Source: Gallaecimonas kandeliae
GTDB taxonomy: Bacteria; Pseudomonadota; Gammaproteobacteria; Enterobacterales; Gallaecimonadaceae
Length of the DNA: 64,000 nt
NCBI RefSeq assembly: GCF_030450055.1
Contig: NZ_CP118480.1
Coordinates: forward strand, 124,001 to 188,000
Direction: 5' to 3'
Position numbers and translations under genes: made by a program. The notes below the pieces were generated by a model, which worked only from the letters and a program-made list of their open reading frames with translations, did not search any database and was not told the DNA's origin. This document shows, in pieces, positions 3,096 to 20,788 of the stretch (position 1 is the first letter of the stretch; each line of letters begins with the position of its first letter).

Positions 3096-3112
3096 TCGAT
3101 ATTCTGGATCTG
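3096..3112. repeat. Left attachment-site core (attL)
   Basis: This copy is identical to 22600-22616. Read on the minus strand it is CAGATCCAGAATATCGA followed by G and TGA, encoding QIQNIE and a stop. It is therefore the displaced original 3' end of yicC, with GAG TGA in place of the GAA TAA now used at the intact gene. Confidence 0.85.
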
Positions 3113-3185
3113 TTTGTCGACTATGCTGGCTACTTCTCTTTAAAACAATAGGTTAGCCGTGGGTCTTACCTGCTCTTGAAGATCA

Positions 3186-3206
3186 TACTACCCGACGTAC
3201 TACCCA
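3186..3206 (+). repeat. Candidate integrase arm sites, left end
   Basis: TACTACCC at 3186-3193 is followed by GTACTACCCA at 3197-3206. The same 10-mer recurs at the right end of the island. Paired arm sites close to both core sites are typical of tyrosine integrases; the role is inferred from position and repetition. Confidence 0.55.
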
Positions 3207-3314
3207 CTTGAGATTGGCTTGGTTGAAGGCTCTGTCCAGCTACCAACCGGGTTCTTGGCCAGTAGTTTTTGGGGCAGGCAAACGGTCACTTCCACTTCAC
3301 TGGCAGCCTGAGGG

Positions 3315-4363
3315 GGCGTTGTTTCCTAAATGCACTGAACCATTCTGCTTAGCTGTGATCCGATCCCCGACGTATCGATGGGGAAAAGCCAAATTGGCTA
3401 GGCCAAGCACAACGCCAGCAACTGGGCAGACTACAACCGCGCCTTGGTCAACCGAGGCTCGTTGACCTTCTGGATGGATGAGGCGGCCATCCGCCATTGG
3501 CATTGTCAGCACCACCACGGCAGCCGAGGGCGAGGCTTCGAATACAGCGACACCGCCATCGAGACAGCGCTGATGCTCAAGGGCTTGTTCGGCCTGCCGT
3601 TGCGCGCCCAGGAAGGCTTTATCAACTCGCTGTTTCAGTTGATGACCCTACCACTGGCCTAGCCCAGTTATAGCTGCATCTGCAAGCGGGTCAAGACGGT
3701 CAACATCAGTTATCGCCTACCCAGTAAAAGCCCTGTTACCCATCTCGTCGTCGACGTCTCCGGCCTCAAGCCCTATGGCGAAGGCGAATGGAAGCAACAC
3801 AAGCACGGTAAGGAGAAGCGTTGGATCTGGTGCAAGCTGCATCTGGCCGTAGATACCCACACCCATGAGGCCATCGCTGCCGAAGTGAGCCTGGAAAACG
3901 TCAGTGACAGTGAAGTATTCCCCAACTTGCTGAATCCACTGCGCCGCCGAATCGGGCAGGTCAGCGCCGACGGTGTTTATGACAGCAAAGTCTGTCATCG
4001 GCTACCGAAAAGGAGAGGCGTCAAGGCGACTATCCCACCTCGCAAAACAGCTGAGCACTGGGAGGAAGGACACCCTCGGAATAAGGCCGTCGCTGCGCTG
4101 AAAGCCGGGCAACTGGCCGAGTGGACAAGAGAAAGCCGCTATCACCAACGCTCAAAAGCTGAAACGGCGATGTCCCGCCACAAGCAGCTCATCAGCCCGA
4201 AGCTGAGTTTGCGCGACTACAATGGGTAAGTAGCAGAGGCTTTGGCTGGAGTGAAGGTGATGAACAAGATGTTGGGCCTCGGCATGCCTATTCGCCAGGC
4301 CAGCTAAGGGCAGCAAGCCCTTTAGGAGCAGGCTTTCCAGGGGCTGATTTAATCAACAACGCC
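3315..4363 (+). mobile_element. Degraded IS5-family (IS903-type) insertion sequence
   Basis: The element spans about 1,049 bp, close to the usual 1.05 kb of IS903-group elements. The right terminal repeat at 4344-4363 reads GGCGTTGTTGATTAAATCAG on the minus strand, close to the IS903 end. The left end at 3315-3334 matches it at 14 of 20 positions. No 9-bp target duplication is recognisable, so the insertion is old. It sits between attL and the DISARM-like operon. Confidence 0.75.
3378..4307 (+). pseudogene. IS5/IS903-type transposase, three in-frame stops
   Basis: One frame reads through from ATG 3378 to TAA 4305-4307 with IS903-type transposase sequence: NWADYNRALVNRGSLTFW, then ALMLKGLFGLPLRAQEG, a DDE-type segment around HLVVDVSGLKPYGEGEWK, and the C-terminal RSKAETAMSRHKQL block. 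It is interrupted by TAG at 3399, TAG at 3660 and TAA at 4227, of which the first and third probably arose from glutamine codons. There is no frameshift, so decay is by point mutation only. The full-length product would have been about 309 aa, the normal size. It cannot make an active transposase. Confidence 0.85.
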
Positions 4364-4579
4364 GATGGGCACTGCACTGGATGTAGAAAAAGGTTACCAG
4401 ATGCATGGGTTTCGTTATACGTTAAGACTTGATACTCAAGGAAATGAGAATTGGTCGCCTACCACTTAAAGTACTCCCACGACCGGGGTGGATGTCGTGA
4501 CCCATCCAAATCAATCTGGGTGTGACTAAGTTAACTCGGTGAATGGCGGCCCAGTATTAACTCAAGGGATAGAAAAACA
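4364..4579 (+). promoter_or_regulatory. Leader region of the DISARM-like operon
   Basis: These 216 bases separate the IS end from the first operon gene and must carry its promoter unless transcription enters from further left. I could not pick out a convincing sigma-70 pair. An imperfect hairpin (GGATG...CATCC) is visible around 4489-4508. A 22-codon open frame at 4401-4469 has a weak ribosome site and no recognisable product. Confidence 0.35.
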
Positions 4580-6241
4580 TTGAGCTCTCACCAGGATTAT
4601 CTCAGAGCGTTCTCCTCTCATGCTCAAACCCTGTCGCGCTTAAATGGGAAGCAGCGTGACCCGTCAAGTCTAATCCAGGAAATTCTGGAATGTTGGAGCT
4701 GTAGTGAAGAACCTTTAGAGCGTGGAATCTGCGAATCCGAAGTCTCTTGGGAAAGAGCTGTGACGGACTTTCTGACCTGGCTTCAAACTTTAGACCACGA
4801 GAATGCGGCCTATTGGCTTGGATGCCTTTACGCCCACCTCCTGCCCGCAGAGCAACGCAAGCACCAAGCAGTCTATTTTACCCCTCCATTGCTGACCGAA
4901 CCCGTGCTTTGGCGCATCCGTAATATGGCGCCCAAAGTTTTGTTAGGCCACATTGTAGATCCAGCTTGTGGCGGAGCTGCGTTCCTCGTGCCGGTTTTGG
5001 AGGTCGTACTTAGGCTTCCAGCTTTGAAGGCCATGAGCCCTGAAGCACGCATGAGCCATGTCGAGAAGCACATACATGGCGCAGATATTGACCCACACTT
5101 AATCGAGATAACTCGTCGGCTGCTCGATCGAAGCATGGCCAAGGACATCCGGGTGACAGGTCAATTTCCTCAGTGGGATCTTCGCGTGGAAGATGGCCTA
5201 AATGCATTTGACGATCTGAATGGCAAAGTGGACTTGGTTGTCAGCAACCCTCCCTATCGCAAACTCATCCGCACGGAAATCGAAACTTTAGCTGACCAGA
5301 GGCTTCGGTCATTGTGTGCCGGACAGTTCAATTTGTATGGTCTGTTCATGGGCCGAGCACTTGACTTGCTTCGACCAGGCGGACACGCCGGACTAGTAAC
5401 TCCTATGAGCTATTTGTCTGGGAAAACTTTCTCGCATCTAAGGTCAAGGTTGATTGCAGAGGCTGCGGTGACAGACTTGGCCTTGGTTCACCAGAAAGGC
5501 GGGGTTTTCTATGGTGCCGAACAGGATGCGGTACTAACCATATTGCACAAGGGCGCCAAACAGGGCCAAGCACGCATCAGTGCTATCTCCAAAGATGGCA
5601 AATCTTTGAGTCTAGGTGCTGTAAAAATTGAAGACCAGGATATGCCTTGGGTCCTACCACGTCGCTCGGAGGATCTTGCTGTACTACAAGAATCGTCCAG
5701 ATGGCATTTATCTCTCAAGGATTATGGTTACAGCATTCGGGTTGGCAATCTTGTCAACTATCGCGACCCTCGACCGAGACATGTTGAGCGTCCTCCAGAC
5801 AAGGCCGACATCGTCCCTTTGCTCTGGGACAGTCACGTGCGAGCCGGGGCCCTTCGATGGACACCCATAGGTACAAAGGAGCGCCCCTCTTGGGTTGAGG
5901 TTGCGAACGGTGCGCAGGGTGTAATTTGCCGGCCAGCAGTACTAATCCAACGAGTATCCTCCCCCGAGCAATCAAAGCGTTTGGTCTGCGCCGCGCTGAG
6001 CGGGGCCTTTATAAAGGAACATCGGGGTTTCATTGCGGAGAATCACGTAATTGTATTGGAGGCTATCGATCCCAAGATTACCCCCGAGCGGCTGGCTCAA
6101 TTGCTAAACCACCCCACAGTTGATCGCTTGTTCTCTATGCGTGCTTCATCCACTAACGTTTCGATATACGAGCTCCAGTATCTTCGCCTTCCAGATGTCT
6201 CCGCGCTGACCGGGTTTATCGGCGCTGCGGAGGTTCTATGA
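4580..6241 (+). CDS. Eco57I-like N6-adenine DNA methyltransferase of the DISARM-like operon
   Basis: This 553-aa SAM-dependent methyltransferase presumably marks host DNA for the operon. Motifs in order are HQAVYFTPPLLTEPV (residues ~95-110), motif I DPACGGAAFLVP (~127), the acidic HIHGADIDPHLIE, and catalytic NPPY (~224), followed by a C-terminal half that would hold target recognition. It is much shorter than the 1,000-aa-class DrmMI/PglX enzymes and shows no nuclease domain, so it resembles the methylase part of Eco57I-type enzymes. A TTG start at 4580 is used, with AAGGGA about 12 bases upstream; no ATG lies nearby. Its stop overlaps the next start as ATGA, so the two are translationally coupled. 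The enzyme class is firm; the link to defence is inferred from the neighbours. Confidence 0.85.
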   Translation: MSSHQDYLRAFSSHAQTLSRLNGKQRDPSSLIQEILECWSCSEEPLERGICESEVSWERAVTDFLTWLQTLDHENAAYWLGCLYAHLLPAEQRKHQAVYFTPPLLTEPVLWRIRNMAPKVLLGHIVDPACGGAAFLVPVLEVVLRLPALKAMSPEARMSHVEKHIHGADIDPHLIEITRRLLDRSMAKDIRVTGQFPQWDLRVEDGLNAFDDLNGKVDLVVSNPPYRKLIRTEIETLADQRLRSLCAGQFNLYGLFMGRALDLLRPGGHAGLVTPMSYLSGKTFSHLRSRLIAEAAVTDLALVHQKGGVFYGAEQDAVLTILHKGAKQGQARISAISKDGKSLSLGAVKIEDQDMPWVLPRRSEDLAVLQESSRWHLSLKDYGYSIRVGNLVNYRDPRPRHVERPPDKADIVPLLWDSHVRAGALRWTPIGTKERPSWVEVANGAQGVICRPAVLIQRVSSPEQSKRLVCAALSGAFIKEHRGFIAENHVIVLEAIDPKITPERLAQLLNHPTVDRLFSMRASSTNVSIYELQYLRLPDVSALTGFIGAAEVL

Positions 6242-8787
6242 CTGACACTTCAAAACAAAACAACATACAGCAGCTAGATTTACAGTTTTGCACGGCGGTG
6301 GAGCATCACTGGCTAGTCCCTGCTCAGGCGACTGAAGTGTTATGTTTGGCGATAGACTCTCTTGCTGGATCCAGTCAGGCAAAAAGTGACCTTGTGTGGC
6401 CCGGCCTGACCGAACACCCCGCGCTCCTGCATGCTATGGCTAATCTTCGCCGTCGAGGTCATGGTGACTTTCAAGGTTTTCGAACCTTGATCTACCCAGT
6501 AATGGATCGCGGCTTGTCAGATCTGCACCGATATTGCGTAGATAGAGACAGGCTAAAGAACCAGGGTCAATACTTGTGTTCACAAGGCATGTTTACATCA
6601 GCAGTGACTCAGTTCCTCTTCGACCCGGCTTCGGTTGAGGACCGCCCTGATGTTCCGCGCTTTCATCCGCCGATGCGCGATTTGATCCCTGTTTTTCAAA
6701 TTCTAGACAATGAAATGGAGTGGCCTGGAACTGACCCTAGAGTCATGAGAGATACGATCCGTTCCGTGGCCCGTTCCCGCCGGAAAGCAATTCGCCAGAA
6801 TATCCAGGCCTACAATGCGTGGGCCAAAGCACCTTCCGCAGTAATAGGTTTGGGCGGCCGATTGGATCGAAAGCACCGAATTAGACGGTTAATTGAAGCG
6901 TTCGGTGCCAAAGTAATGTCACCAGACCTTGTTATTTTAGATGGGCGACGGAAGGTCCTGAATGGGCTAAATATCTGTCCCGAACAGCTGATTCACTTTG
7001 TGCAATCTCTGGCGGAATCCTTCCCTAAACACGCCAAACCTCCTGGTTTATGGGTTTTCTTTGATCAGCCGGATGATTGGCTAGATTTCAGGATCCGCGT
7101 TCGTCAACGATTGGCCTTACTCGACGACTTAAGTGATCTTGAAGTCCGCTGGCTTCGAGAACTTCTTTCAGACGCAGCCATGCATATCCATACAGGTAAT
7201 TGGCTCAATACCACGATAAGTGAAACGCCACCATCGACTCCAATCGGCTGGCCACAACCCTATGCAGTGGATAATGAAACTACGCGGCTTGCATCCAAGA
7301 TAATAGGATTGATTCAGCATCCAGATTGTGGGGGGAGCTTGGAACCCAGTCTTTGGCGCGCCTACCTTTGGATAACAGGGGTGTCAAATCTCACAATTCC
7401 TTTGCGTTCAGTTGAAAACTGGCTGGTTGAACATCCTGATCAGCGTCGTATCCACCGCCAATGGGATGCCCTGGAGGCGAAGAAAGGACTAATTGAAGTT
7501 CTGCAAAAGGGGCAAGCCGGTCCACTACACGATGAACTCCATTACCTAGTGACGTCGATGGATACGCTCCATAAGCATTGGATCGCCCATGGGCAGCCTA
7601 TGGTTTACGCCTTCAAGAGTTCTCTTGACCGAATTACATTGCAGCAGGATAGAAATGTACATGTCGTTGTGAAGACCTTTCTAGAAAAAGAATTGCTCGC
7701 ACACGATTACGCGAATTGCGGCGTCCATTTTCATCGTTCCTCAGAATTAAAGATCTTGGGGAGCGAAATTTTTCATGAGCCCGTTTTATTCACAGACATG
7801 AACAAGCCATGGCTCGATCATCTCCTTTTTAAGACGGATTCTACTCCGTTCGAATGGTTATTAACGCCACGAACTCTACGCTGGATGAAACGTTACCTAG
7901 ATGGTCTGCTAGAGGCCCCAGGTTTGGGGCCTCTAGAAGTGCGGGTAACGGGACTGCGCGATGTTGTCAAAGCTGTGTTGGAACAACCTGGCATGGATCT
8001 GTTTATGCATCGTCCATCCCCAGAGATCTTCGACCTACTTGAAGACACCTTGCCAGCATATTCCAGCCCCGGTTCTTTTTCCGACGGAACTATTCGGGTG
8101 ACCTTGGATGATGGATCTACGCGAAGCTTGTGGGGAAATCAGACGGTCTATCGTTCTAAAGGTCTAGTCTCTAGCTTGAATCTTGAACCGGTCGTAGCTC
8201 GCCGATTAGAGGTTGGGGATGTCATCTTGTGGCCCGACGAGGTCCTCGAGATGGCCATGAATCAGGTACTGTCCGAAGATGCATTGGCTCGAATGATGGT
8301 GGCCAAAACATTCGTCGACTGTCTAAAAGCGTACCACGACAATTTGAGAACTGCTTACGCCAGACACCCTGCCAAACCAGAACTTCGGCCAGAAATCATA
8401 CGTCAGGCTATGTCGGAAGCACTCCGGACGGACATCGAGCTGAGCAATATCAAAGACTGGCTCTCGCCCATACTGCAGCCAGACAATCTCCATGGCCGAT
8501 CCCATGCTCCTCAAAGGTACGACATATTTCAAGAGTTTGCGCGTGCAGTAGGACTCCCGGAGCTGTTTGTGCCGACGTATTGGAAGGGCATTGTCCGCTA
8601 TCGTGGGGCAAGGCGTGTTAAAGGCCGCGAACGTCATGCCGTGTTACTGCAGTGTCTTCTTCATCCAGAGAGTGCGGCAGCCTATTGTGGCAGTGAAGCC
8701 CAGGCTTTGTCTGACTTGCATCATGTTGCTCTTAGTCAACTTTTCACTCTGAATGCTATCCACACTAAGGAGGCTACCCGTGCCTGA
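6238..8787 (+). CDS. Uncharacterised 849-aa protein of the DISARM-like operon
   Basis: I do not recognise this family. The product is soluble-looking, with no signal peptide, no membrane segment and no Walker A or helicase motifs, so it is not a DrmD-type SNF2 helicase. The N-terminal ~330 residues include an FQGFRTLIYPVMDRGL stretch and a basic segment near 180 (RSVARSRRKAIRQN). A segment at about 620-670 (DGTIRVTLDDGSTRSLWGN, then RRLEVGDVILWP) looks like a small beta-rich domain. The start ATG overlaps the methyltransferase stop (ATGA), with GGAGG upstream. The stop overlaps the GTG of drmA by 8 bases. Its place directly before drmABC makes an accessory or sensor role in the system likely; equivalence to DrmE is possible but unproven. 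Confidence 0.8.
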   Translation: MTDTSKQNNIQQLDLQFCTAVEHHWLVPAQATEVLCLAIDSLAGSSQAKSDLVWPGLTEHPALLHAMANLRRRGHGDFQGFRTLIYPVMDRGLSDLHRYCVDRDRLKNQGQYLCSQGMFTSAVTQFLFDPASVEDRPDVPRFHPPMRDLIPVFQILDNEMEWPGTDPRVMRDTIRSVARSRRKAIRQNIQAYNAWAKAPSAVIGLGGRLDRKHRIRRLIEAFGAKVMSPDLVILDGRRKVLNGLNICPEQLIHFVQSLAESFPKHAKPPGLWVFFDQPDDWLDFRIRVRQRLALLDDLSDLEVRWLRELLSDAAMHIHTGNWLNTTISETPPSTPIGWPQPYAVDNETTRLASKIIGLIQHPDCGGSLEPSLWRAYLWITGVSNLTIPLRSVENWLVEHPDQRRIHRQWDALEAKKGLIEVLQKGQAGPLHDELHYLVTSMDTLHKHWIAHGQPMVYAFKSSLDRITLQQDRNVHVVVKTFLEKELLAHDYANCGVHFHRSSELKILGSEIFHEPVLFTDMNKPWLDHLLFKTDSTPFEWLLTPRTLRWMKRYLDGLLEAPGLGPLEVRVTGLRDVVKAVLEQPGMDLFMHRPSPEIFDLLEDTLPAYSSPGSFSDGTIRVTLDDGSTRSLWGNQTVYRSKGLVSSLNLEPVVARRLEVGDVILWPDEVLEMAMNQVLSEDALARMMVAKTFVDCLKAYHDNLRTAYARHPAKPELRPEIIRQAMSEALRTDIELSNIKDWLSPILQPDNLHGRSHAPQRYDIFQEFARAVGLPELFVPTYWKGIVRYRGARRVKGRERHAVLLQCLLHPESAAAYCGSEAQALSDLHHVALSQLFTLNAIHTKEATRA

Positions 8788-11700
8788 GCGTATTGCGCCT
8801 TTAAAGATAGACGCATCACTTAAGGAGGCAGTATCCGAGGCTCTCTTGGGCCAAGTGTACCAGCGGATTTCCGGTGGGGGTGAATCCGGTAAGGTACTCT
8901 TCCGCGTACGCCCTCAGGATCAGCTGGTGTCGGGATTTCTGCTTCCACCGACACGTGAAGCTGACTTGGATGAGACTCGTCGCAATATTGTGATTTCTTC
9001 GCACGGTATTCGTTTAAAACTTCAAAAGTCGGTTCCCGGAAATTTGAAACTTCAGATCCAGGTTTCAGCCTATGTAAGGATGCTTCCTAAGAATGAGGAT
9101 TTGATGCGTCCAGGTGTGCGTCCTGTACCTGTGTTGTCTCGGGAAGCGCAGAATTCCATGCGAGAATGGGTGAGTAGCCGACTATCTACTCCTCCAGATG
9201 ATGTTAATGGAATCTCGCGAGAAGAACGTGCATTGAAATTACGTGAGATCTGGTTGATTGAGCATGGTGTTCCACCAGCTTTATTCCCACATGTCAGCCT
9301 TTCGGACCTTGATCCTGGCCCAGAAAATGAAAGCAAGCAGGACGAAGCTACAGCCATGGGTGGTCAGTCAGGCACAACAAATCTTGCGGACACAACTCAG
9401 ATAAATGCGCTGTTTGATCCCCTTCCTGTTCCTCATCGTTGGGAACGGGTGGACTTGCCATTCCCCGAGTTAGACCTGGACCTTGAGAATATATCTACCT
9501 GGCCGAATATCACCCAAGCCTTTTCAGTAACTTTGAAAGAACAATTGGCCTCAGAGCTAGTGGCCTGGAGTCAGGCGCCAGAGCAAGCTGGGCGAGTCTA
9601 TCGAAAAGGTCTGAAATGCAAGGTTGCAGATTTGCTGGACTGGAGTCAGTTTTTGGAGCGAACAGCACAAAGCGACGATCCAATGGTTCTACCACCCCTT
9701 GAGCCCGTCCTGATTTGCAGGGTTACCGACGATTGGCAAGTTGATGGCCAGACTAATCTGACACTTTTGGTCGAGAATCGTACACGTCCTCCGGCACAGG
9801 ACATTGATGCCTACGATCCGGCGTTGTTTGGCGTAAGTATTACCGTGATATTGCCAAAAAATGCACATTTGCCGCTGCCCATGTCGCGAGTAAAGAGATC
9901 CTACGCAGTAGAGCGTTTCCTGAATTACCCAGCCATGGGGTTCAACGGAGGCGTTGAACGCCTACCAGCCAATCCTGGCGAATTGAGGCTGCGCACAACT
10001 TGGGCACCACGCTTCCATCAACCACGCATGCGGGCTCGAGACCATGAAGGCATAAACCGAAGATTTCGCCACCTTGCTCAAGCTGATGGCCATGAAAGTC
10101 TTATGCCTATGGTTCAGGCTTATGTTAATTGGATCCGAGAAGTTGATGCTGAATTCTCGCGAAGCGAGAGTCAAAGGAACAATGCGAATCATCAAGCAGA
10201 GCTAGACGCTTTCGAAAGAGACAGGGACCTTGGTTGGCGACGTGAATTGGATGGTATTCGCGACGGTCTAGTTATACTGGAAATCTCACGCAAGCACTGG
10301 TCCGGCCGAGGTCCTCAAAGTGACTCAAGAGGTGCACCTTATGAGGCATGGTTGGCTATGAATGAAGCAATGGCCGACATGATGAAGGACAAGCTCAAGA
10401 ATGATGATGGGGCATGGCGCCTATTCCAGGTTGCATTCATTCTGGCCAGTCTGCCCTCGCTTGTTACCAGAATGAGTGATTTCAAGCACAGCTTTCAGCG
10501 CAACAGGGATGAGGCTGTCACGTTGCTTTACTTCTCTACTGGCGGAGGTAAATCTGAAGCCTTCCTTGGTCTGCTGCTTTTTAATCTATTTCTAGATCGT
10601 TTACGAGGTAAGGCTTTCGGGGTGACCGCAATGATGCGCTACCCGTTGCGGCTGCTGACCATACAGCAGGCCGTTCGTACAGCTAAGGCAATGGCATTCG
10701 CCGAAACCATTCGTATCAAAAGAGAATACTCTGGCGAGCCATTCAGCATTGGTTTCTGGGTGGGGAGTACAGGAACGCCGAACTGGCACAGTGACCCGAA
10801 GATTCAGAACATTCCTTACCTTGAGGATGTTGGTGTAGAAAGGCCGATTCCTGCTGGTCTGAAGGATAATTACAAGCAGGCTGAAGTCGATTGGCGTAAG
10901 TTGACCCACTGCCCCTTTTGTAGCTCAAAAACTGTTCTCCGGAGGGTGCGAGCATCAGGGGGGACACTTGCACATGTATGCACCAGTAAGTCGTGCATTT
11001 CCCATTGTGGTACACCCTACAAGGCACTTCCCTTTTATATCTGCGATGAGGATATTTACGCCTTTGCACCTTCCGTACTGCTTGGCACCGTAGACAAGTT
11101 GGCCCTTATTGGCCAGAGCACTCGTACTATCCGACATCTATTTAGTATGTTTGGCGCAGCCGCAACCCGAGACTCTTCAACAGGCCGTTTAGCCCCACCG
11201 CAAATTCAAAACCCCGGTCCACAAAGTGCTGCTGGTGAGGATGAAAACTACCCACTTGCCCCTGCGTATCCTTCTGGTGTCCCCCTCTTTCACGATCCTT
11301 TTCCATCAATGCTTATCCAGGATGAGGCTCACCTTCTGGATGAGTCGCTAGGGACCTTTGCTGGTCTGTTCGAGACTTTATTCGAGGCAATGCTGGACTG
11401 CCTGGGAAGTACGCGACTTGCTTCGGCTGGTATGGCTGTTGCCCCAGATGGTCTGCGTAGAAGGGCCAAAGTCATTGCGGCTTCAGCCACTGTTTCTCAG
11501 CCGGATAGGCAGATGGAACATCTGTACCAGCGGAGTACTCCTACCGTCCTTTTCCCCCATCCGGGCCCAGACATCTACCGATCCTTCTATGCCGAACCAT
11601 TACTTCGTGAGGATGCAGTAATGCCAGACATCCAGGATGCCCAGGATCTTGAAGAGCATCGCACAAGTTGGTCACGCATTTATATTGCTTTCCTGACCAA

Positions 11701-12883
11701 TGGTCGACCACATACAACAACTACAGTGGCAATCCTTGGTCACTTCCACCGTACTATCACGCTTTATTATGAAGGATTGAGGCAAGGAGATCTTGAAGAA
11801 GTCAGGTCCTTGATGAGGAATAGTCTGGATCCGGAAAGTCCAAACGGGCTTTATTTCGATGCCCAGCTGGCTGAAGCAAATGCCTCGCAGTTATTAACTT
11901 TGGTAGACCTTCATCGCATTGCTTTGACTTATGTGACCAATAAAAAAGGGGGAGATCAGGTTCAAGCAGCCGAATGGCCTGAGGCGAAACGTATCCATGC
12001 CTATGAGAAGTCAGACTACTCACCAATGCCTACCCGCCTGATAACATCCGAAGTCGAACAAGGAGAGATCCAGAGCATTATTGAAGATGCTCAGCGTCGT
12101 GTTGACACTGGCCAGGAGTTTCCACCGATAGTGGATCAGATGCGCTCGATCATCGCCACATCGGCAGTGTCGCATGGTGTGGATGTGGATGAGTTTAATT
12201 CGATGTTCTTTGCTGGCATGCCATCAGACATTGCTGAATATATTCAGGCGTCTTCACGTGTAGGAAGGACGCATACCGGCTTTTGTGTATTGATCCCCAC
12301 CCCACAGCAAAGAAGAGACCGTTACGTTGTCGAGGTATTTGACGGTTTCCATCGTTTTTTGGAGCGAATGGTGCAACCCGCAGCAATAGATCGCTGGGCC
12401 GAGCAGGCCATCGTTCGGTCGTTGCCCAGTATGGTTATGGGGTATCTCGCGGGTGTACGCCCGATGATGAACTTTCTTAATCTCGACGACGATAAGGATG
12501 GTTGGCAGAGTGATCGCCTTGTCTCAAGCATACTGCAGGCATATAAACGCCAGCCAGTAACATTTCGAAGCGACATGGTGAACTTCCTGAGCGAGGCCAT
12601 TGGCTTGGATAATGGATTCGAGCCGGCTGCTGAGCCACATTACCGAGCAATGATTCGTGAGACAGTCGATGAGCTCATCAATGGCATGCAAATGGAGCAC
12701 CACTGCCCAAACTCATTCGAAAGTTATATGGCGACTTGTCCTTTGGGCCATGCCCCTATGACGTCACTTCGTGACGTCGATACCGGGGGAGTCATCGTTA
12801 AGGCTAATCATGACTACAAAGACCAAAGCCTGAAAGATGCGGATGTGCGTGCTCTTATGGACCTGATCCGTAAAGGACTCTGA
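8780..12883 (+). CDS. drmA: DrmA-type superfamily 2 helicase
   Basis: This very large (1367 aa) ATP-dependent helicase-like protein is the hallmark of DISARM defence. Walker A is TGGGKSEA (~residue 588), the DEAH box is IQDEAHLLDE (~848), and the motif V/VI region reads SHGVDVDEF followed by QASSRVGRT (~1156). Between the RecA halves is a cysteine cluster (CPFC, then CTSKSCISHC, ~711-745) suggesting a zinc site. About 580 residues precede the helicase core. I chose GTG 8780 because AAGGAGG lies seven bases upstream; ATG 8753, nine codons earlier, has no ribosome site. The start overlaps the preceding gene, and drmB follows after 14 bases. In studied DISARM systems this protein works with DrmB on invading DNA; activity here is inferred from family. 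Confidence 0.85.
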   Translation: MPERIAPLKIDASLKEAVSEALLGQVYQRISGGGESGKVLFRVRPQDQLVSGFLLPPTREADLDETRRNIVISSHGIRLKLQKSVPGNLKLQIQVSAYVRMLPKNEDLMRPGVRPVPVLSREAQNSMREWVSSRLSTPPDDVNGISREERALKLREIWLIEHGVPPALFPHVSLSDLDPGPENESKQDEATAMGGQSGTTNLADTTQINALFDPLPVPHRWERVDLPFPELDLDLENISTWPNITQAFSVTLKEQLASELVAWSQAPEQAGRVYRKGLKCKVADLLDWSQFLERTAQSDDPMVLPPLEPVLICRVTDDWQVDGQTNLTLLVENRTRPPAQDIDAYDPALFGVSITVILPKNAHLPLPMSRVKRSYAVERFLNYPAMGFNGGVERLPANPGELRLRTTWAPRFHQPRMRARDHEGINRRFRHLAQADGHESLMPMVQAYVNWIREVDAEFSRSESQRNNANHQAELDAFERDRDLGWRRELDGIRDGLVILEISRKHWSGRGPQSDSRGAPYEAWLAMNEAMADMMKDKLKNDDGAWRLFQVAFILASLPSLVTRMSDFKHSFQRNRDEAVTLLYFSTGGGKSEAFLGLLLFNLFLDRLRGKAFGVTAMMRYPLRLLTIQQAVRTAKAMAFAETIRIKREYSGEPFSIGFWVGSTGTPNWHSDPKIQNIPYLEDVGVERPIPAGLKDNYKQAEVDWRKLTHCPFCSSKTVLRRVRASGGTLAHVCTSKSCISHCGTPYKALPFYICDEDIYAFAPSVLLGTVDKLALIGQSTRTIRHLFSMFGAAATRDSSTGRLAPPQIQNPGPQSAAGEDENYPLAPAYPSGVPLFHDPFPSMLIQDEAHLLDESLGTFAGLFETLFEAMLDCLGSTRLASAGMAVAPDGLRRRAKVIAASATVSQPDRQMEHLYQRSTPTVLFPHPGPDIYRSFYAEPLLREDAVMPDIQDAQDLEEHRTSWSRIYIAFLTNGRPHTTTTVAILGHFHRTITLYYEGLRQGDLEEVRSLMRNSLDPESPNGLYFDAQLAEANASQLLTLVDLHRIALTYVTNKKGGDQVQAAEWPEAKRIHAYEKSDYSPMPTRLITSEVEQGEIQSIIEDAQRRVDTGQEFPPIVDQMRSIIATSAVSHGVDVDEFNSMFFAGMPSDIAEYIQASSRVGRTHTGFCVLIPTPQQRRDRYVVEVFDGFHRFLERMVQPAAIDRWAEQAIVRSLPSMVMGYLAGVRPMMNFLNLDDDKDGWQSDRLVSSILQAYKRQPVTFRSDMVNFLSEAIGLDNGFEPAAEPHYRAMIRETVDELINGMQMEHHCPNSFESYMATCPLGHAPMTSLRDVDTGGVIVKANHDYKDQSLKDADVRALMDLIRKGL

Positions 12884-12897
12884 ATAAGGAGATACTC

Positions 12898-15189
12898 GTG
12901 GTCTATCGCCCAAACCAAATGGAAGTGGATTCTGAGCGGCAAAAGGAATCCAAGGCCAAAAGTATGAACCGTTCTCAGAGCCAGTTGGCAGGATCATATG
13001 CTCCGGGTGTGTTTTTTCCGTTTGAAGGTGGCCTTGGGGCGTGCATGGCGCTTCCACTCCCTCAGACGCATTACAACCTATATGAGCCGACTCCATCAGT
13101 GCGTGCACAGATCAGCCTGCGCTTGGATGAGGCCATTCAATCATGGGTGCGGCGTGCGCAGACTGCCTCTGATTCCGTGCCAATGGCGTCAATGTGTGTA
13201 TCCGATTGGATTTTGAATCAAGGACAGCTGGGGAAGGTCACACTTGACCGATTCATGCTCGTGAAACCAGTCAATATGGGTTACACCCTTGCTCCATTAA
13301 CATTCGTTTGCGAACACGAGGGATGCGGCTTATATCGAGGATTTGACACTGTAAAACAGACACGGAAGGAGATGGAGAATCTCATCCAATGCCCAAACTG
13401 TCATCGTCCTGCTCGTTGGCGACAGTTGGATGTCATTCATGTCCATCCATCTGGTCATTGGGAGCCTCTTCGTCCCGGACGGTACGACTGGCGTGTTGGA
13501 GAGGATGGTCAAGGTTACCTGCAACGCCCGAGATCCTACTGTGCTCAATGCAGTAATGACTCTTTTCGTTTGGTTATGGATCCGCGTGGATTAAGTCATT
13601 GGCGGTTTGTTTGTGCAAACTGTAACACCCCTGATTTCGCTCAGATGCGACAGAATGATCCTGTTACGCTCGAGAGTCTGAAGGACCAAGTCCAAAGTCG
13701 CCCAGGTTATGCGCGTATGGAAGCAATCTCATATCGTGCATCGGCGGCTCATTACGCTCAAAGCGACCAGTTCGTACTGTTTGGCCGAGACAATCCCGAG
13801 ATCATGAGCCTGCTGGATCAAAGTCGTGAATCAGATCTCGTCCACTTTATCGCGACTCAATTCGGTTTTGGTCACGGTGAACGACCGACATTCGAAGAGT
13901 TAGCTCTAGCGCTGCGTGAGCGCGGCTTTGCCCAGGATGCCGATACTTTGGAAGGTGAGGCCAAGCGCTTTACCGATGCCCGTGATGCGCTGGCACTAGT
14001 GCCTGAAACAATTCGCCCGGTGCTTCAGGTCTCTGTGGACGAGCAGGCCGACAAACTCCGTATCAGCATGGATACTTTATTAAACCAACATCCTGATCTA
14101 TTCCCTGAGCAACACGCGCTGAGTGCAGAAGCGGAAGCCGTATTCGCCCAACGTGCAAAATTCTCGATGCGTTTCGATCCCTTCCGTCTTGCAGTCGAGC
14201 ATGAGGCCCTAGAAGTCAGTGTCCTTAGGCACCCAGGAAAGGCGGGTCGACGGCCCTACGTCTCCTTTGCAGCCCCAGACGCTGATCTTGCACCGCGCGA
14301 TCCTGATGCTCGTGCTGATCAGATAGAGTGCATCAAGGCGTTACTTCCACGACTGGGTCTGGTCGATTGCGGATTAATTCGCGAATTCAACCTATGCCGC
14401 ATGACATTTGGCTTCACCCGCGTCGGCAATCAGCCAATCTTAGAGCGCGACCGCTTTGGCCCGGGGGGAATGCCTGTGAAGCTGAATCTGTTCCCTCTAG
14501 AGAAGAACATTAAGGGCCGTTTCCGTTCGCCGATCTACATCATCGACCAGACTAATGAAGCGTATTATTTCCGACTAAAGCCAAGTCTAGTGTACGACTG
14601 GCTTCAGGCCATTAACCCAACACCAGCGGATAGTTTTGCTTGGTCACCGAGCGACACAATTCGATTCGGCGGGCGGTTGCTTGAGAATGCTGTTCCTTTT
14701 GGGCGATTCTTAGACAATATCGGTGCTGAGCAGATGAGCCAGGTCTATCCACTCGTGTATGGCCTGCTGCATAGCTATGCTCATGTGCTAATGAAAGTTG
14801 TGGCAGAACGCTCAGGGTTAGATCTAGGGTCGATGGGCGAATACATCTTCCCGGCAGATCTTGCGTTTGTCATCTATCGCAATGGTACAACCCTGGATTT
14901 AGGTAACCTTTCTTCCGTATGGCGCAATGATAACAAAGACATCCTGAAAGAACTCCTGGCTTCTCATACCACAGAGTGTGGTGCTGGAAGTTTGTGCGAC
15001 GAGGGTGGTGGCGCTTGTCCCGACTGTCTGATGATCCCTGAAACAGCCTGTCTTGCCCAGAATCGCCTCCTCTCTCGGGCCTATCTGTGTGGCGGTCCAG
15101 TACCTTGGCAGATTTCCGCCCAGGACGAGATGCCAGGTTATTTGGAAATCGCGCATGCTGCTGTCGCCAAAACCAGATCTGTTGCTTGA
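12898..15189 (+). CDS. drmB: DrmB-type DUF1998 zinc-binding protein
   Basis: This 763-aa protein is the standard partner of DrmA. Cysteine pairs that could bind zinc occur at FVCEHEGCGLY (~138-146), CPNCHRP (~165), YCAQC (~215) and CANC (~240). The DUF1998 signature is visible at GLLHSYAHVLMK (~622), and a second cysteine cluster (CGAGSLC, GGACPDC, ETACLAQ, ~695-720) is near the C-terminus. There is no nucleotide-binding motif. The start is GTG with AAGGAG seven bases before it, and the drmC start lies inside its 3' end. In DISARM, DrmA and DrmB form a complex that recognises DNA ends or single strands; that role is taken from the family, not seen here. Confidence 0.85.
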   Translation: MVYRPNQMEVDSERQKESKAKSMNRSQSQLAGSYAPGVFFPFEGGLGACMALPLPQTHYNLYEPTPSVRAQISLRLDEAIQSWVRRAQTASDSVPMASMCVSDWILNQGQLGKVTLDRFMLVKPVNMGYTLAPLTFVCEHEGCGLYRGFDTVKQTRKEMENLIQCPNCHRPARWRQLDVIHVHPSGHWEPLRPGRYDWRVGEDGQGYLQRPRSYCAQCSNDSFRLVMDPRGLSHWRFVCANCNTPDFAQMRQNDPVTLESLKDQVQSRPGYARMEAISYRASAAHYAQSDQFVLFGRDNPEIMSLLDQSRESDLVHFIATQFGFGHGERPTFEELALALRERGFAQDADTLEGEAKRFTDARDALALVPETIRPVLQVSVDEQADKLRISMDTLLNQHPDLFPEQHALSAEAEAVFAQRAKFSMRFDPFRLAVEHEALEVSVLRHPGKAGRRPYVSFAAPDADLAPRDPDARADQIECIKALLPRLGLVDCGLIREFNLCRMTFGFTRVGNQPILERDRFGPGGMPVKLNLFPLEKNIKGRFRSPIYIIDQTNEAYYFRLKPSLVYDWLQAINPTPADSFAWSPSDTIRFGGRLLENAVPFGRFLDNIGAEQMSQVYPLVYGLLHSYAHVLMKVVAERSGLDLGSMGEYIFPADLAFVIYRNGTTLDLGNLSSVWRNDNKDILKELLASHTTECGAGSLCDEGGGACPDCLMIPETACLAQNRLLSRAYLCGGPVPWQISAQDEMPGYLEIAHAAVAKTRSVA

Positions 15190-15985
15190 GGCTTTGATTC
15201 CAGTAGGAAGTACTGCTGTAGTTCTTTTGTCCGTGATGGAGTCTACGAGATCAAGTGGGATTCGGTTGGATCGTCTGATTAGTGAAGCAGGCATACCTCT
15301 GGCACGCCGTCAGGATGTTTTTCGAGTCTTGCAGATACTCGCTAGACAAAATTGGCTGATAGAGCGCGACGGCTATTGGCAACGGACTAAGAGGTTTGAA
15401 CCGACACTGCGATGGCGGCTCACAGGGGCCTTACAAGCTCTAGCATCTCGGGAAAATGAACAGGCTGATATAGTCCTTACTCAGGGCTCGCATGCACGAG
15501 CGCTTCGCGATGCGATCTCTACCTGTGTACCATGTTCGCCGATCCTTCGTACCGATGAGCTATTCCGCGAGATGGTATCTACCACCCCAAAAGGCAGTCC
15601 GGTTTATTTTGTCATGCCGTTCTTTGACGAGGAAGGGCTGTGTTTCTTAGGTGAGCTTACCAGACATGTTCCGGAAGGCTCTAAAATCCGACTCATTACC
15701 CGTGTCCAGCAGATTGAGGACGAGTTAAGGCTCAAGGATCTACAATCCAAGGCTAAACATCTACTAACCATTAGAATATATCAGCGAGCAGCCGAGAAAG
15801 GATATGAGACATTTCATGCAAAGCTGGTAGCCCACAACACATCAGCGTATGTTGGATCCGCCAATTTAACCCGCGCATCTCTTGGAATAAGTGCGGAACT
15901 AGGTATTCATCTCAAGAGCAGAAGCGCAGAAACAGTATTTCAGTTAGCGGATGTGCTCTGGGGAATCTCAGAAGCTATCGAATAA
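15155..15985 (+). CDS. drmC: DrmC-type phospholipase D-like protein
   Basis: This 276-aa phospholipase D superfamily protein completes the drmABC triplet. A single HKD motif is present: FHAKLVAHN (~residue 220) followed by GSANLTRASLG (~234). The N-terminal third looks like a winged-helix DNA-binding segment (IRLDRLISEAGIPLARRQDVFRVLQIL). With one HKD motif per chain it would need to dimerise to form a nuclease-type active site. The frame extends up to 15053, but ATG 15155 is the better start: it gives the usual length and overlaps drmB by only 35 bases, though its ribosome site is weak. In tested DISARM systems DrmC is reported as the least essential member. It is the last gene of the operon. 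Confidence 0.82.
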   Translation: MLLSPKPDLLLEALIPVGSTAVVLLSVMESTRSSGIRLDRLISEAGIPLARRQDVFRVLQILARQNWLIERDGYWQRTKRFEPTLRWRLTGALQALASRENEQADIVLTQGSHARALRDAISTCVPCSPILRTDELFREMVSTTPKGSPVYFVMPFFDEEGLCFLGELTRHVPEGSKIRLITRVQQIEDELRLKDLQSKAKHLLTIRIYQRAAEKGYETFHAKLVAHNTSAYVGSANLTRASLGISAELGIHLKSRSAETVFQLADVLWGISEAIE

Positions 15986-16221
15986 AATTAATAGGCAAGT
16001 TATTGTTGTTGCATCTTGAATGATTTCGGAGTTAAACTTTGCTATTCTAAGTTTCCTCATCTGAGCGTATCTTTGAAAAGTAATATAAAAATATTAAGAT
16101 TTGTTTGATTAGGATGGTGAAATTTTTTGTTTTACTATCTCCGAAACGCTACTCCTAGCGGGAATTTATACGTAAGTGCCGAAAAAGTTGAAAAATAGAA
16201 AAATCTTATTTTGTAGTGTTT
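15986..16221. other. AT-rich intergenic region after drmC
   Basis: No gene is visible. A small hairpin (CGCTA-CTCC-TAGCG, about 16147-16160) could weakly end transcription of the defence operon. The rest is strongly AT-rich and unlike the flanking genes. Confidence 0.4.
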
Positions 16222-16407
16222 TTAAATTCGCTGGTTTAATTTCTCAACTATCCAAGCTTCGACCTCCTCTTGATTCCACGCAACGTTCCTTGGGCCTAAC
16301 TTAGCCTGACGCGGAAATCTTCCATCTTTCATGTAATTGTATATGGTTGGACGAGACAGTGCGGTCATGCTCATTACCTGAGGAAGTTTTATCAGTTTCT
16401 TGGCCAT
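16222..16407 (-). CDS. AlpA/Xis-like helix-turn-helix protein
   Basis: A 61-aa AlpA-family DNA-binding protein. The pattern LPQVMSMTALSRPTIYNYMKDGRFPRQAKLG, then a tryptophan and the acidic helix EEVEAWIVEKL, is the classic MerR-like winged helix of phage and island excisionases. Such proteins bend the arm sites for excision and often activate the integrase gene. It lies inside the island, on the same strand as the Rep, peptidase and integrase genes. The candidate origin and inverted repeat lie directly upstream, so they may also serve its control. Confidence 0.8.
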   Translation of the reverse strand: MAKKLIKLPQVMSMTALSRPTIYNYMKDGRFPRQAKLGPRNVAWNQEEVEAWIVEKLNQRI

Positions 16408-16444
16408 AGTTGTATCTCTGAAATGATGTCACCGTTGACCTCTC

Positions 16445-16572
16445 CCGTTTACAGATTCGGATCTGCTAAGGGCGGACTGGTGAACTGGAAGTTCTGACGA
16501 GCGAAGAGTTCTTGGTGTCAGCTCGCTCGTCAGCAGGAGCGGAATGCCCCTGTTCCTTCCGTTTACAGATTC
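16445..16572. other. Candidate replication origin: inverted repeat between two 14-bp direct repeats
   Basis: CCGTTTACAGATTC occurs at 16445-16458 and again at 16559-16572. Between them is a perfect 11-bp inverted repeat, CTGACGAGCGA at 16494-16504 and its complement at 16523-16533, with an 18-base loop. A partial copy, TTTACAGATT, recurs at 18672-18681 just upstream of the Rep gene. Repeats plus a hairpin next to a rolling-circle-type initiator resemble a double-strand origin. This is inference from arrangement; a regulatory role for alpA is the main alternative. Confidence 0.4.
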
Positions 16573-17215
16573 ACGAAGCCAAGGAGAGCGGGTCAGAACT
16601 ATTGAACCGCTTCAGGGCGATTGCGCTGATGGTCTGCAACTTGTGACCGGATGCGAACGACCGTGCCAAAGTTCTTTTGGCCTTCGGTATGCGGATGACT
16701 TCGTTCCAGCAACACAGGACTGGCGAAGCGAAACTGGGGTCCAGGCAAAGTATGTCCACAGAACTATCGGTTTCGCAGAAGCCGACCGCGCAGGTCATGT
16801 GTGCAAAGTTCTCTACTGCCGTGTAGGCCAGTAGAATCGGGGCGTTCGACTTCAAAGTATCGATTAGGAACTTTGGATCGAGGTGGCAGAAGTTCTGTAG
16901 TTCTACCGAAAGTTCCTTGCCGTAAGAACTATGGAGCGCATGTTCAACGACATGTATCTCCTGGCCTTCACGCAGGAGGAGGTCGCTTCGGTTCCACCAG
17001 GAAAGAAGTTTCCCGAAACGTGTACGGCCATCGAACCGATGGCCATACTTCACTTCGAACAGATCAACTTTGCCGAGAAGTATCAGCGCCGTAACCACGG
17101 CATAGAGCGAGCATGCACCATCCAGGTCCCCCTGCCTGAGGTGCATCGAAAGTTCCGGGTTATACGGAGAGAAGTGAACTACCGACAGCGGTTCAATGAT
17201 GTGCATGTTTGGCAT
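16571..17215 (-). CDS. Papain/C39-like cysteine peptidase domain protein
   Basis: A 214-aa protein whose pattern fits a papain-fold peptidase: QGDLDGACSLYAVVTAL with a candidate nucleophile Cys near residue 36, FAHMTCAVGF with a candidate His near 138, and CLDPSF with a candidate Asp near 157. There is no signal peptide or membrane segment, so it should act in the cytoplasm. It follows the Rep gene by about 40 bases on the same strand and is probably co-transcribed. Its stop codon overlaps the right copy of the 14-bp origin-like repeat. I do not know its target; processing of Rep or a host-interference role are both possible. The family assignment is by motif only. Confidence 0.6.
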   Translation of the reverse strand: MPNMHIIEPLSVVHFSPYNPELSMHLRQGDLDGACSLYAVVTALILLGKVDLFEVKYGHRFDGRTRFGKLLSWWNRSDLLLREGQEIHVVEHALHSSYGKELSVELQNFCHLDPKFLIDTLKSNAPILLAYTAVENFAHMTCAVGFCETDSSVDILCLDPSFASPVLCCWNEVIRIPKAKRTLARSFASGHKLQTISAIALKRFNSSDPLSLAS

Positions 17216-17257
17216 ACGAGTGTCTGCCTCTTCGCTTTGTTGAGTTTGATGAAGACA

Positions 17258-18637
17258 TCAAGCATCGTCACCTGATGACAAAACTGGGTATCGAAAGAAG
17301 GTGGCCCATTCCTTGATATGAAGATTCGCCTCTTTAGATAGTTGGAGATAGGGAAACTCTATCAAGTAGTTGTTCAAGCGATTTCTGAACCTCCTCAGAT
17401 ATTTTTTATCCCTGATAGTATCTAAGTAGCTGTCCAATCCATCGTTCAAAATCTTTTGACGTTGCTCCTTCCTTTTTACGTGATCTATGATCCCAATGTT
17501 ATAAAACTTCGTACCCATGAAATATTCTCTTGGAACTTTGAACTTACTTAACTTACGCGATGCTAGCCTTTTTAAAAGAGGGCTCTTTCCTGGGATGATC
17601 TTCCACTCAATGCGGGTTAAGAAATGACCGAAATCTATCCCCTGAGTAGAAAGTAATTCTGTAGCCTTATCGTATATTTTTAGCTGGCATCCATGCTTGG
17701 AGCCCAGAGTCCTTGTCTCTGTTATTCTATTCATAGGTGTTTCGGGATCTGGTTTGTTACTACCAGAGAATTTCATTATTTCATTGCTACGACTATTCGA
17801 TATAACACTGTGGATAGGGGCATCCTTAATATCTATGGCGATATCTACCCTAGTAACCTTAAGGCTGTCGTAGAAATCACAATAACTCTCAGAGCCAATT
17901 TTTTTCTTTATGAACGTTAGTAACTTGATAAGATGCCGTGGCTGAAGCTTGTCAGGGTTGAACTCTAATCGTATTTGGTTAGGGTTTCTTTTTTTGTTGT
18001 ATAATGATAGATGTATTACTTGTGACTTTACCTCAACGCAGTATGCATACAGATAGAGATTACCATTTTTGAATTCTCGTCTTACTTTAGCCTTTTTGCC
18101 GAAGCATCTTTTCAGACCATCAAAGAGACCCTGTCTCAGTTTGGTCATTGCAATCTGCTCAATTTCCCCTACCACACTCAATTTATCGAAAATGACGTAG
18201 AACTTTTCTTTGTCGAAGATAAACTTTTGGAATTTACTATTGCCCTCTCTTATTTTCTTCATGTATGGACGGTTACTTAGGTAGATAGGGTGAGAGAGGT
18301 GCTTGAAGCTATGATTGCATATGCTTCTACTATCATTCAAAGGTACATTATTGCTTATAGCTTCTAATGCTCTGCTATTAGAGGGGCCGCTTTGCTTTCT
18401 CTTTGCCTGTTCAAGCAACTTGAGTCCATCCTTACTCCTCAGGTACCGATCGAGTTTTTTCTTGGTAATGAAGCCATGGATATCAAAGTTCTTTCGGGTG
18501 ATACCAACACTGTTGAAGTGCTTGGTCAGGCCTGGATGCTTTCTGTATCGTATCCATTTCTTGATTGTAGTCGGTTGAACTGAGAGTTTTTTCGCTACTT
18601 CGTCAATGCTGAACAGAAGTTCTGTATGGTTAGTCAT
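17258..18637 (-). CDS. Rolling-circle-type replication initiator (RstA/Rep_trans-like)
   Basis: This 459-aa protein begins with a MerR/Xis-like helix-turn-helix (FSIDEVAKKLSVQPTTIKKWI). It then carries a central region typical of filamentous-phage RstA and Rep_trans initiators: a VTRVDIAIDIKD strand at ~250, KIYDKATELL at ~315 and LTRIEWKI at ~335. Such proteins nick one strand of a circular form at the origin and start rolling-circle synthesis. I could not assign the catalytic tyrosine with certainty. The start ATG has a perfect AGGAGG. The gene is clearly AT-rich against the chromosome, which supports acquisition with the island. It suggests that the excised island can replicate, as in some integrative elements and phage satellites. 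Confidence 0.65.
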   Translation of the reverse strand: MTNHTELLFSIDEVAKKLSVQPTTIKKWIRYRKHPGLTKHFNSVGITRKNFDIHGFITKKKLDRYLRSKDGLKLLEQAKRKQSGPSNSRALEAISNNVPLNDSRSICNHSFKHLSHPIYLSNRPYMKKIREGNSKFQKFIFDKEKFYVIFDKLSVVGEIEQIAMTKLRQGLFDGLKRCFGKKAKVRREFKNGNLYLYAYCVEVKSQVIHLSLYNKKRNPNQIRLEFNPDKLQPRHLIKLLTFIKKKIGSESYCDFYDSLKVTRVDIAIDIKDAPIHSVISNSRSNEIMKFSGSNKPDPETPMNRITETRTLGSKHGCQLKIYDKATELLSTQGIDFGHFLTRIEWKIIPGKSPLLKRLASRKLSKFKVPREYFMGTKFYNIGIIDHVKRKEQRQKILNDGLDSYLDTIRDKKYLRRFRNRLNNYLIEFPYLQLSKEANLHIKEWATFFRYPVLSSGDDA

Positions 18638-18671
18638 CCTTTCCTCCTGATGATGTTGGTGACTAACCGTA

Positions 18672-18681
18672 TTTACAGATT
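18672..18681 (+). repeat. Third copy of the TTTACAGATT repeat
   Basis: TTTACAGATT lies 35 bases upstream of the Rep start codon, matching the core of the 14-bp repeats at 16445 and 16559. A shorter TTTTACAGA follows at 18686-18694. These could be Rep-binding or autoregulatory sites. Confidence 0.4.
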
Positions 18682-18726
18682 TTCGTTTTACAGAGCGTCA
18701 TGTGGCTGGACGTGGTTGCGCAGGCC

Positions 18727-19242
18727 TTAGTTATAGATATAATCGTTGATGTTAGTAAAAGGCTGGCCTACCCAAGCGTGGCTGTTCATACTTTCTAGCG
18801 TGACTTCACCGCCTGACACGGACCACTGAACCTCTACCGCTTCACCAGCCTTCCATTCATTCTTCAAGCACTCTATCAAAGCGTTTCTGGCTACGTCTTC
18901 GCCTTTCTCCAGTAAGTTGAAGGCGGGGCCGAGAAACATCATTTTGCAGGCGCTTCCAATCACATGTGATCTGTACATAGGAGTTTCGTCAAACATGGAT
19001 AGATAATCATCGACTACGGCTTGGTGCGTTTCTTCGGATATGTAGCCGGTGAAGGTCACGATCGAGTACCCCTTGGGTGACGTTTCAGAAGTCCATTCTG
19101 GTGAATTGAAGGTCGCTTCAAATGCTGGACCGGTCTTGTTGCCGTAATCCTCTGGTTCGTAGTTCTTAACGAGCTGTACCGCTTCGTTCGAGCATGCGGC
19201 CAAAGAAAGAGCTACAGTAACGACAAGTAGCTGCCTTTTCAT
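18727..19242 (-). CDS. Predicted lipoprotein of the island
   Basis: A 171-aa protein with a short type II signal ending in a lipobox (LSLAAC, cysteine at ~17), so it is probably anchored in the cell envelope. The mature part has no motif I recognise. ATG 19242 is chosen over an upstream start because AAGGAG lies just before it and it gives a clean signal peptide. It starts ten bases after the stop of the membrane protein gene upstream, so the two form an operon. Confidence 0.7.
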   Translation of the reverse strand: MKRQLLVVTVALSLAACSNEAVQLVKNYEPEDYGNKTGPAFEATFNSPEWTSETSPKGYSIVTFTGYISEETHQAVVDDYLSMFDETPMYRSHVIGSACKMMFLGPAFNLLEKGEDVARNALIECLKNEWKAGEAVEVQWSVSGGEVTLESMNSHAWVGQPFTNINDYIYN

Positions 19243-19252
19243 AGTTCTCTCC

Positions 19253-20374: not shown

Positions 20375-20433
20375 TTGACTTCTCCTTTTCCGGTTAAACA
20401 TAAGCCGTTTTTTGTCAGGCTGGCCTGCGTCCT

Positions 20434-20445
20434 TTAGTTAACTAA
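20434..20445. promoter_or_regulatory. Palindromic operator candidate between divergent genes
   Basis: TTAGTTAACTAA is a perfect 12-bp palindrome in the gap between the membrane-protein gene and the XRE regulator gene. It is well placed for the regulator to control both promoters. Binding is inferred. Confidence 0.4.
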
Positions 20446-20515
20446 GTAATCCTTAGTATCTGTGACGAGTGTAAGCTCAGAGAATCTTAGCTTTCAAGCT
20501 GAACCACTCAGGTAC

Positions 20516-20788
20516 ATGCAAGCTAAGGACGAATCCCCTTTCTCCCGTCGCCTCAAAGAGGCAAGGTTAGCGAGCGGTTACTCTCAGAAATCCTTAGGGA
20601 TTGCAGCTGGGATTGACGAGTTTGCTGCGTCTGCACGCATGAATCAGTATGAACGCGGAGTCCATGCTCCCGATTTCCTGACTGTCAGGGCGATAGCCAG
20701 GGTTTTGAACCTTCCTACAGCCTTCTTCTATTGTGAGGAAGAGGAACTGGCCGAGATGATCAAAGTTTGGCAGCAAGGCAGGTTCTGA
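20516..20788 (+). CDS. XRE-family transcriptional regulator
   Basis: A small Cro/CI-type DNA-binding protein: SPFSRRLKEARLASGYSQKSLGIAAGI supplies the first helices and MNQYERGVHAPDFLTVRAIARVLNLPTAFFY the rest of the domain. There is little beyond the helix-turn-helix. I chose ATG 20516 (90 aa); the frame is also open from GTG 20462 (108 aa), and neither start has a strong ribosome site. It is divergent from the membrane protein/lipoprotein operon and convergent with the integrase gene, whose stop is only 10 bases away. It is probably an island-encoded repressor. Confidence 0.75.
   Translation: MQAKDESPFSRRLKEARLASGYSQKSLGIAAGIDEFAASARMNQYERGVHAPDFLTVRAIARVLNLPTAFFYCEEEELAEMIKVWQQGRF

Follow-up and report, generated by a model that had tools for sequence, protein, structure and literature searches.

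A DISARM-like locus of Gallaecimonas kandeliae that joins an N6-adenine methylase to a putative, highly diverged DrmE

DISARM is described in two classes, class 1 with the gene set DrmD-DrmMI-DrmA-DrmB-DrmC and class 2 with the set DrmA-DrmB-DrmC-DrmE-DrmMII; the definitions used here combine PMC9142583 and PMC9252829 with general background. A stretch of 64,000 nucleotides of Gallaecimonas kandeliae (contig NZ_CP118480.1, positions 124,001 to 188,000), hereafter the window, carries five genes which a sequence-only reading had described as a DISARM-like locus with the modification and sensing parts swapped. The locus raises the question of which DISARM lineage it represents, and of what its 849-aa protein is. 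Here we present the gene content, recurrence and probable affiliation of this locus, together with a structural prediction for the 849-aa protein.

Gene content, carrying element and recurrence

All five genes are real and intact and have the look of an operon: their ORFs are open on the + strand and, as first described, are tightly spaced or overlapping by their coordinates (Table 1). The methylase start (TTG 4580) is merely the first possible start in its ORF. The listed start of the PLD gene (TTG 15053) is mechanical, and the likely start is the in-frame ATG at 15155, from which the protein measures 276 aa and the gene overlaps the preceding stop by 35 nt. The domain identities of the initial description (adenine methyltransferase, DrmA, DrmB and DrmC-type PLD protein) hold at family level in Pfam, NCBIfam and PADLOC, and the 849-aa protein is without a family match in these three collections. 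The three drm matches are real but remote, with NCBIfam scores far below the curated cut-offs (DrmA 340 of 950 bits, DrmB 33 of 240, DrmC 30 of 133).

Table 1. Features of the locus and of the element that carries it (window positions)
Feature	Position	Strand	Remarks
Left 17-bp repeat (att-like)	3096-3112	+	Identical to 22600-22616; expected number 0 at up to 2 mismatches
Broken DDE transposase (IS remnant)	3400-4310	+	Between left repeat and methylase; DDE_Tnp_1 7.3e-10 on 3885-4229, frame interrupted
N6-adenine DNA methyltransferase (Eco57I/CamA-like)	4580-6241	+	553 aa; proposed self-marking enzyme
Putative diverged DrmE	6238-8787	+	849 aa; predicted pseudo-SF2-helicase core ~15-580, then C-terminal barrel and helical domain
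DrmA-type YprA-family SF2 helicase	8753-12883	+	1376 aa; no fused DUF1998
DrmB-type protein (OB-CON-DUF1998 homologue)	12898-15189	+	763 aa; C-terminal Cys cluster
DrmC-type PLD protein	ORF 15053-15985, likely gene 15155-15985	+	310 aa (ORF) or 276 aa (likely gene)
AlpA-like regulator	16231-16407	-	58 aa, HTH-like sequence; resemblance judged by eye
Replication-initiation-like protein	17258-18637	-	Rep_trans E 6.5e-4, below Pfam cut-off
Tyrosine integrase	20798-22075	-	Phage_integrase 3.1e-17, Arm-DNA-bind_3 1e-19
yicC	22596-23459	-	3' end carries right repeat
Right 17-bp repeat (att-like)	22600-22616	+	Within last codons of yicC

The methylase matches Pfam Eco57I (2.2e-15) and N6_Mtase (9.9e-13). 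The solved structure nearest to its family profile is the CamA-type methyltransferase 7lni (6.5e-31), and BseCI matches at 4.9e-22. Members of the family measure about 580 aa (553 aa in the window copy) and keep the NPP[YFW] motif in 74 of 74 cases; the motifs are intact in the window copy, and the gene is present as a putative, DISARM-associated self-marking methylase. Similarity to DrmMI is confined to a catalytic core of about 120 residues, and comparison with the profile of the haloarchaeal C5 methyltransferase gave E 0.076. The modification enzyme is thus, to judge from its motifs and profiles, a non-canonical Eco57I/CamA-like N6-adenine methylase related to CamA- and BseCI-type enzymes.

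The helicase matches NCBIfam NF038325 (E 2.7e-101), and its only sequence match in the PDB is the solved DrmA 7s9v_A (3.4e-45). Its N-terminal 560 residues align with the N-terminal module of DrmA at Z 12.9, the next unrelated row reaching 4.8. The structural alignment begins at about DrmA residue 105-130, and the N-terminal ~100 residues of class 1 DrmA, in which an EVE-like domain has been described (PMC12458937), are therefore without an aligned counterpart. TGGGK is found in 87 of 87 family members and QDE[AM]H in 84 of 87, and the motifs are intact in the window copy. No relatives of the helicase were found in the phage records searched. DrmB (NF038324 3e-8; PADLOC DrmB 8.7e-16) is encoded by a separate gene next to drmA, and the PLD protein (PF13091 2.8e-9; NF038319 4.4e-7) is a DrmC homologue at family level; both are core traits of DISARM.

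The HxKx4D motif of the PLD protein is found in 56 of 61 relatives. At 15830-15875 the window copy reads HAKLVAHNTSAYVGSAN, in which the aspartate of the HKD motif has been lost by a one-codon deletion and a substitution, and the local PLD protein is therefore probably impaired. A similar change occurs in the PLD protein of locus L039 (HAKVVRVND). The missing aspartate, the broken transposase upstream (3.4-4.3 kb) and an 849-aa protein shorter than its relatives (849 vs ~920 aa) could together mean that the window holds a decayed, non-functional copy of the system. We regard this as unlikely, because all five ORFs are open, the helicase and methylase motifs are intact, and about 15 relatives do without a PLD gene altogether; in class 2 DISARM the PLD protein is, moreover, reported to be partly redundant (Ofir 2018).

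The stretch that holds the cassette is low in GC (~0.50 vs 0.63). An integrative element of about 19.5 kb (3096-22616) at the 3' end of yicC carries it. The right repeat is conserved at the yicC 3' end in four genomes of the same genus, with up to 3 mismatches. In a genome of the same genus, G078, the counterpart of C1:122922 in the genome of the window is separated from yicC by 53 bp of continuous sequence, from which it follows that about 23.7 kb were inserted in the genome of the window; this insertion consists of a type IIG restriction gene together with the 19.5-kb element. Genomic islands are known to integrate at yicC (PMC8978831). The type IIG restriction-methylation gene (window 1-2793, genome C1:123629-126793; PADLOC REase_MTase_IIG 1e-219) lies close to the left repeat, on its outer side, in DNA of low GC that has no counterpart in the same-genus genome, and probably stems from an earlier insertion at this site.

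A scan of genome contigs for relatives found 164, of which 80 were kept, and the gene content of the loci was called with iterated profiles. The set methyltransferase, unknown protein, DrmA, DrmB and (PLD) recurs in about 85 loci from dozens of bacterial species, so the arrangement is not due to chance and is not a one-off, the question that the survey proposed with the first description was to decide. By record titles the hosts comprise alpha-, beta-, gamma- and zetaproteobacteria, Acidobacteriota and Geomonas. Among plasmids, the helicase as query recovered all five genes in unchanged order from Polaromonas, Mesorhizobium, Sphingomonas and Afipia, an IS-interrupted copy from Sinorhizobium and a rearranged copy from Rhizobium. 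The complete five-gene order is found in 52 of 87 loci and the order without a detected PLD gene in 19; in 8 the methylase has moved downstream (Rhizobium/Microvirga/Brevundimonas-like). The 849-aa family is present in every locus whose contig extends far enough, and median gaps between the genes range from -26 to +2 nt. The fetched flanks of 88 loci contained no recurring sixth neighbour gene and no C5 methyltransferase, DrmD or DrmMI (blastp with Deinococcus DrmD and DrmMI). Pairwise distances of the 849-aa family, the helicase and DrmB correlate at r 0.98-0.99, values that show common inheritance of the three, not contact. Methylase distances correlate with those of the same three at r 0.82-0.84 among relatives, and the methylase is somewhat more exchangeable than these.

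The 849-aa protein

Ordinary searches with the 849-aa protein in plasmids, 296 genomes of its order and viral contigs gave no match beyond its own genome, and none of 45 family members has a convincing match in Pfam, NCBIfam or PADLOC, all falling below every curated DrmE model. Profile comparison (hhalign in local mode, with shuffled, reversed and other-family controls) aligned the family with a profile of nine DrmE sequences, mostly haloarchaeal, at E 1.4e-16 over 420 columns (family columns 415-873). The best of 60 column shuffles reached E 0.5 and the reversed profile 0.17, and comparisons with DrmD, DrmMI and the other four cassette families gave E of at least 0.1. The RecA2-like segment matches at 1.9e-8 and the barrel with the helical domain at 7.5e-15, in the same order as in DrmE; the N-terminal half is marginal (0.018). 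The bacterial DrmE of L124, used singly, gave no signal against the family. In haloarchaeal DISARM loci a DrmE of similar length stands directly 5' of drmA, the position of the 849-aa gene.

By these profile matches DrmE homology is established for the C-terminal ~60% of the protein and likely for the remaining N-terminal part, and the 849-aa protein is best described as a very fast-evolving, highly diverged DrmE homologue. The proposal that a new sensing part had been swapped in is therefore not upheld. A strong full-length DrmE match, which would have spoken against the initial description, exists only in part: profiles show it clearly over the C-terminal ~60% and marginally in the N-terminal half, and ordinary HMM searches do not see it. 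It would be rather surprising if the protein were an unrelated new component replacing DrmE and resembling it only in a shared barrel/helical module; the lack of any single-sequence or HMM match to DrmE models, the barely matching N-terminal half and the mean identity of only 24% between family members fit such an origin, but two separate segments match DrmE in the same order, and operon position and length are those of DrmE.

An AlphaFold model built with 62 relatives (pLDDT 85, pTM 0.78) has as its top structural neighbours exclusively SF2 helicases of Hef/XPF/RIG-I/MDA5 type (Foldseek E 1.9e-5). Compared with XPF, the model gave a VIA Z of 11.0 over 16-561 (383 residues, rmsd 9.1), and its TM-scores are low (0.2-0.26) because the domains are differently placed. 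Like the XPF/Hef/RIG-I proteins, the predicted 849-aa protein consists of RecA1, a helical insert and RecA2; it differs from them in lacking detected sequence similarity and a nuclease domain, and in ending instead with a predicted barrel and helical domain. Walker A is absent from the family, with one stray match in 76 sequences, and in no alignment column does GK[ST] exceed 7 of 62. LxWPxxxx stands where motif I would be, and the motif II position lacks the DEAH box. From these losses in an SF2-like fold the protein is predicted to be a dead SF2 helicase of the XPF/Hef/RIG-I arrangement, extended at its C-terminal end by a barrel and a helical domain; XPF itself likewise carries a dead helicase domain. 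The C-terminal barrel gave weak matches to Hedgehog/intein sequences (E 0.086) and to an intein structure (over 68 residues), which probably reflect a common barrel.

Placement among DISARM and related systems

Profiles of the three shared proteins are closer to DrmE-type DISARM than to class 1 in hhalign comparisons (helicase 8e-139 vs 1.7e-71, DrmB 3.9e-46 vs 2.2e-13, PLD 2.7e-27 vs 1e-14). With the 849-aa protein added, four of the five parts are homologous to those of DrmE-type DISARM. In the helicase tree the cassette helicases form one clade (SH-aLRT 100, stem 2.0) on the DrmE side, on long branches whose joins may be false. PADLOC placed no DrmE, DrmD, DrmMI or DrmMII model among the best matches, and the gene set that it requires for DISARM type I or II (PMC9252829) is incomplete here.

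With class 2, as found in haloarchaea such as Halobacterium GSL-19, the locus shares a DrmE-like gene directly 5' of drmA, recognisable at profile level, followed by drmB and the PLD gene, and helicase, DrmB and PLD profiles that are closest to this type. It differs from class 2 in beginning with an N6-adenine methylase and not with the C5 cytosine methylase DrmMII, in a DrmE, DrmB and DrmC beyond curated detection limits, and in a monophyletic helicase clade on a long stem. With class 1 (Deinococcus L119, Planktothrix L120) it shares an adenine methylase, the DrmABC core and the DrmA N-terminal fold (7s9v/7s9w); it differs in lacking the DrmD SNF2 helicase and in a methylase of about 580 aa compared with the DrmMI of more than 1100 aa. 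The gene set thus fits neither published class, as the sequence-only reading had it. Of the two parts said to have been swapped, modification has indeed changed, from a C5 enzyme to an adenine Eco57I-like one that is also no full-length DrmMI, its match being restricted to the catalytic core; the presumed sensing part has not been replaced, the 849-aa protein being a diverged DrmE.

That the cassette is a BREX/ARMADA-like or Druantia-like YprA system and not DISARM is highly improbable: a methylase and a YprA-family helicase side by side in a defence context would suit such systems, of which ARMADA and Druantia are examples (PMC12458937), but the DUF1998 part has a gene of its own apart from the helicase, which is a consistent trait in the DISARM branch alone (PMC12458937), the helicase N-terminal region matches that of DrmA as described above, no DrmD/SNF2-like or DrmMI/PglX-like neighbour occurs in the fetched flanks of the 88 loci, and the PADLOC matches to the Druantia III and Dpd markers (DruE, DpdF/DpdK) are weak, those to DruE and DpdF far weaker than that to DrmA. 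ARMADA/BRIGADE/TALON (Bell et al. 2025, PMC12458937) likewise combine a YprA-family helicase with DNA-modification partners; the fused OB-CON-DUF1998, Vsr nuclease, BrxHII-like helicase and PglX of ARMADA were not found here. Identity with the "DISARM-like" cassette that Bell et al. describe in association with McrBC was ruled out, since that cassette is of SNF2/PglX (ARMADA) type.

We read the locus as a third DISARM lineage, composed of a class-2-like core, an adenine methylase and a pseudo-helicase DrmE. No description of DrmE together with an adenine methylase was found in the searchable papers, which took in only a minority of subscription papers.

Other gene sets were observed among the loci. 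A Cupriavidus oxalaticus plasmid (L122, 1387-18762) encodes a 2285-aa protein, a weak DrmE of 933 aa, a helicase spread over two ORFs, and also DrmB and PLD, a set related to but different from that of the window. A Rubrobacter plasmid (L128, 4019-15192) encodes a 645-aa DUF1156-like protein, an unannotated DrmE-like protein of 839 aa, DrmA, DrmB and PLD, and represents a further DrmE-type set in which no C5 methylase is obvious. L135, L136 and L123 (gammaproteobacterial, Roseomonas) form another unlisted combination of a ~1012-aa DrmA, DrmB, a ~400-aa protein (sigma-70-like in Roseomonas) and a C5 methylase, with no DrmE or DrmD.

Proposed function and meaning

By analogy with known DISARM the cassette would serve in phage defence. 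It is quite probable that it constitutes a DrmE-type DISARM restriction system in which an N6-adenine methyltransferase provides the self-mark in place of the C5-cytosine DrmMII, with a DrmE so diverged that ordinary searches miss it. The methylase would mark an adenine motif in the host genome. DrmA and DrmB would form a two-part YprA helicase motor which, as in the solved class 1 DrmAB complex, may load on incoming single-stranded or 5'-overhang DNA; that complex is autoinhibited and is opened by 5'-overhang single-stranded DNA, its preferred substrate, and shows less ATPase activity on methylated DNA (PMC9142583). The DrmE-like protein, with a predicted helicase-shaped DNA-binding core lacking ATPase motifs as in XPF, may bind DNA or the motor without ATP hydrolysis and, tied to DrmAB, serve as a sensor of DNA structure or a scaffold with no motor function. 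The PLD protein would be an accessory nuclease, often missing and in the window copy probably crippled. Unmarked invading DNA would be unwound or degraded, and marked host DNA spared.

The wider claim, that this is a third DISARM class widespread in Pseudomonadota with a DrmE-type core, N6-adenine self-marking and a DrmE that is a dead XPF/Hef-like helicase sensing DNA structure, we hold at even odds. The cassette would give DISARM a further coherent lineage, for which current catalogues (NCBIfam, PADLOC) have partial names or none and which will escape detection tools built on obligatory DrmE/DrmMII models. Whether self is marked on adenine or on cytosine would be separable from the DrmE-type effector core. 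We know of no DISARM in which the role of DrmE has been established, and the helicase-shaped protein without ATPase motifs proposed here is the first concrete structural hypothesis for DrmE known to us, one that would make the subunit testable. This pseudo-helicase reading of DrmE is the part of most general interest.
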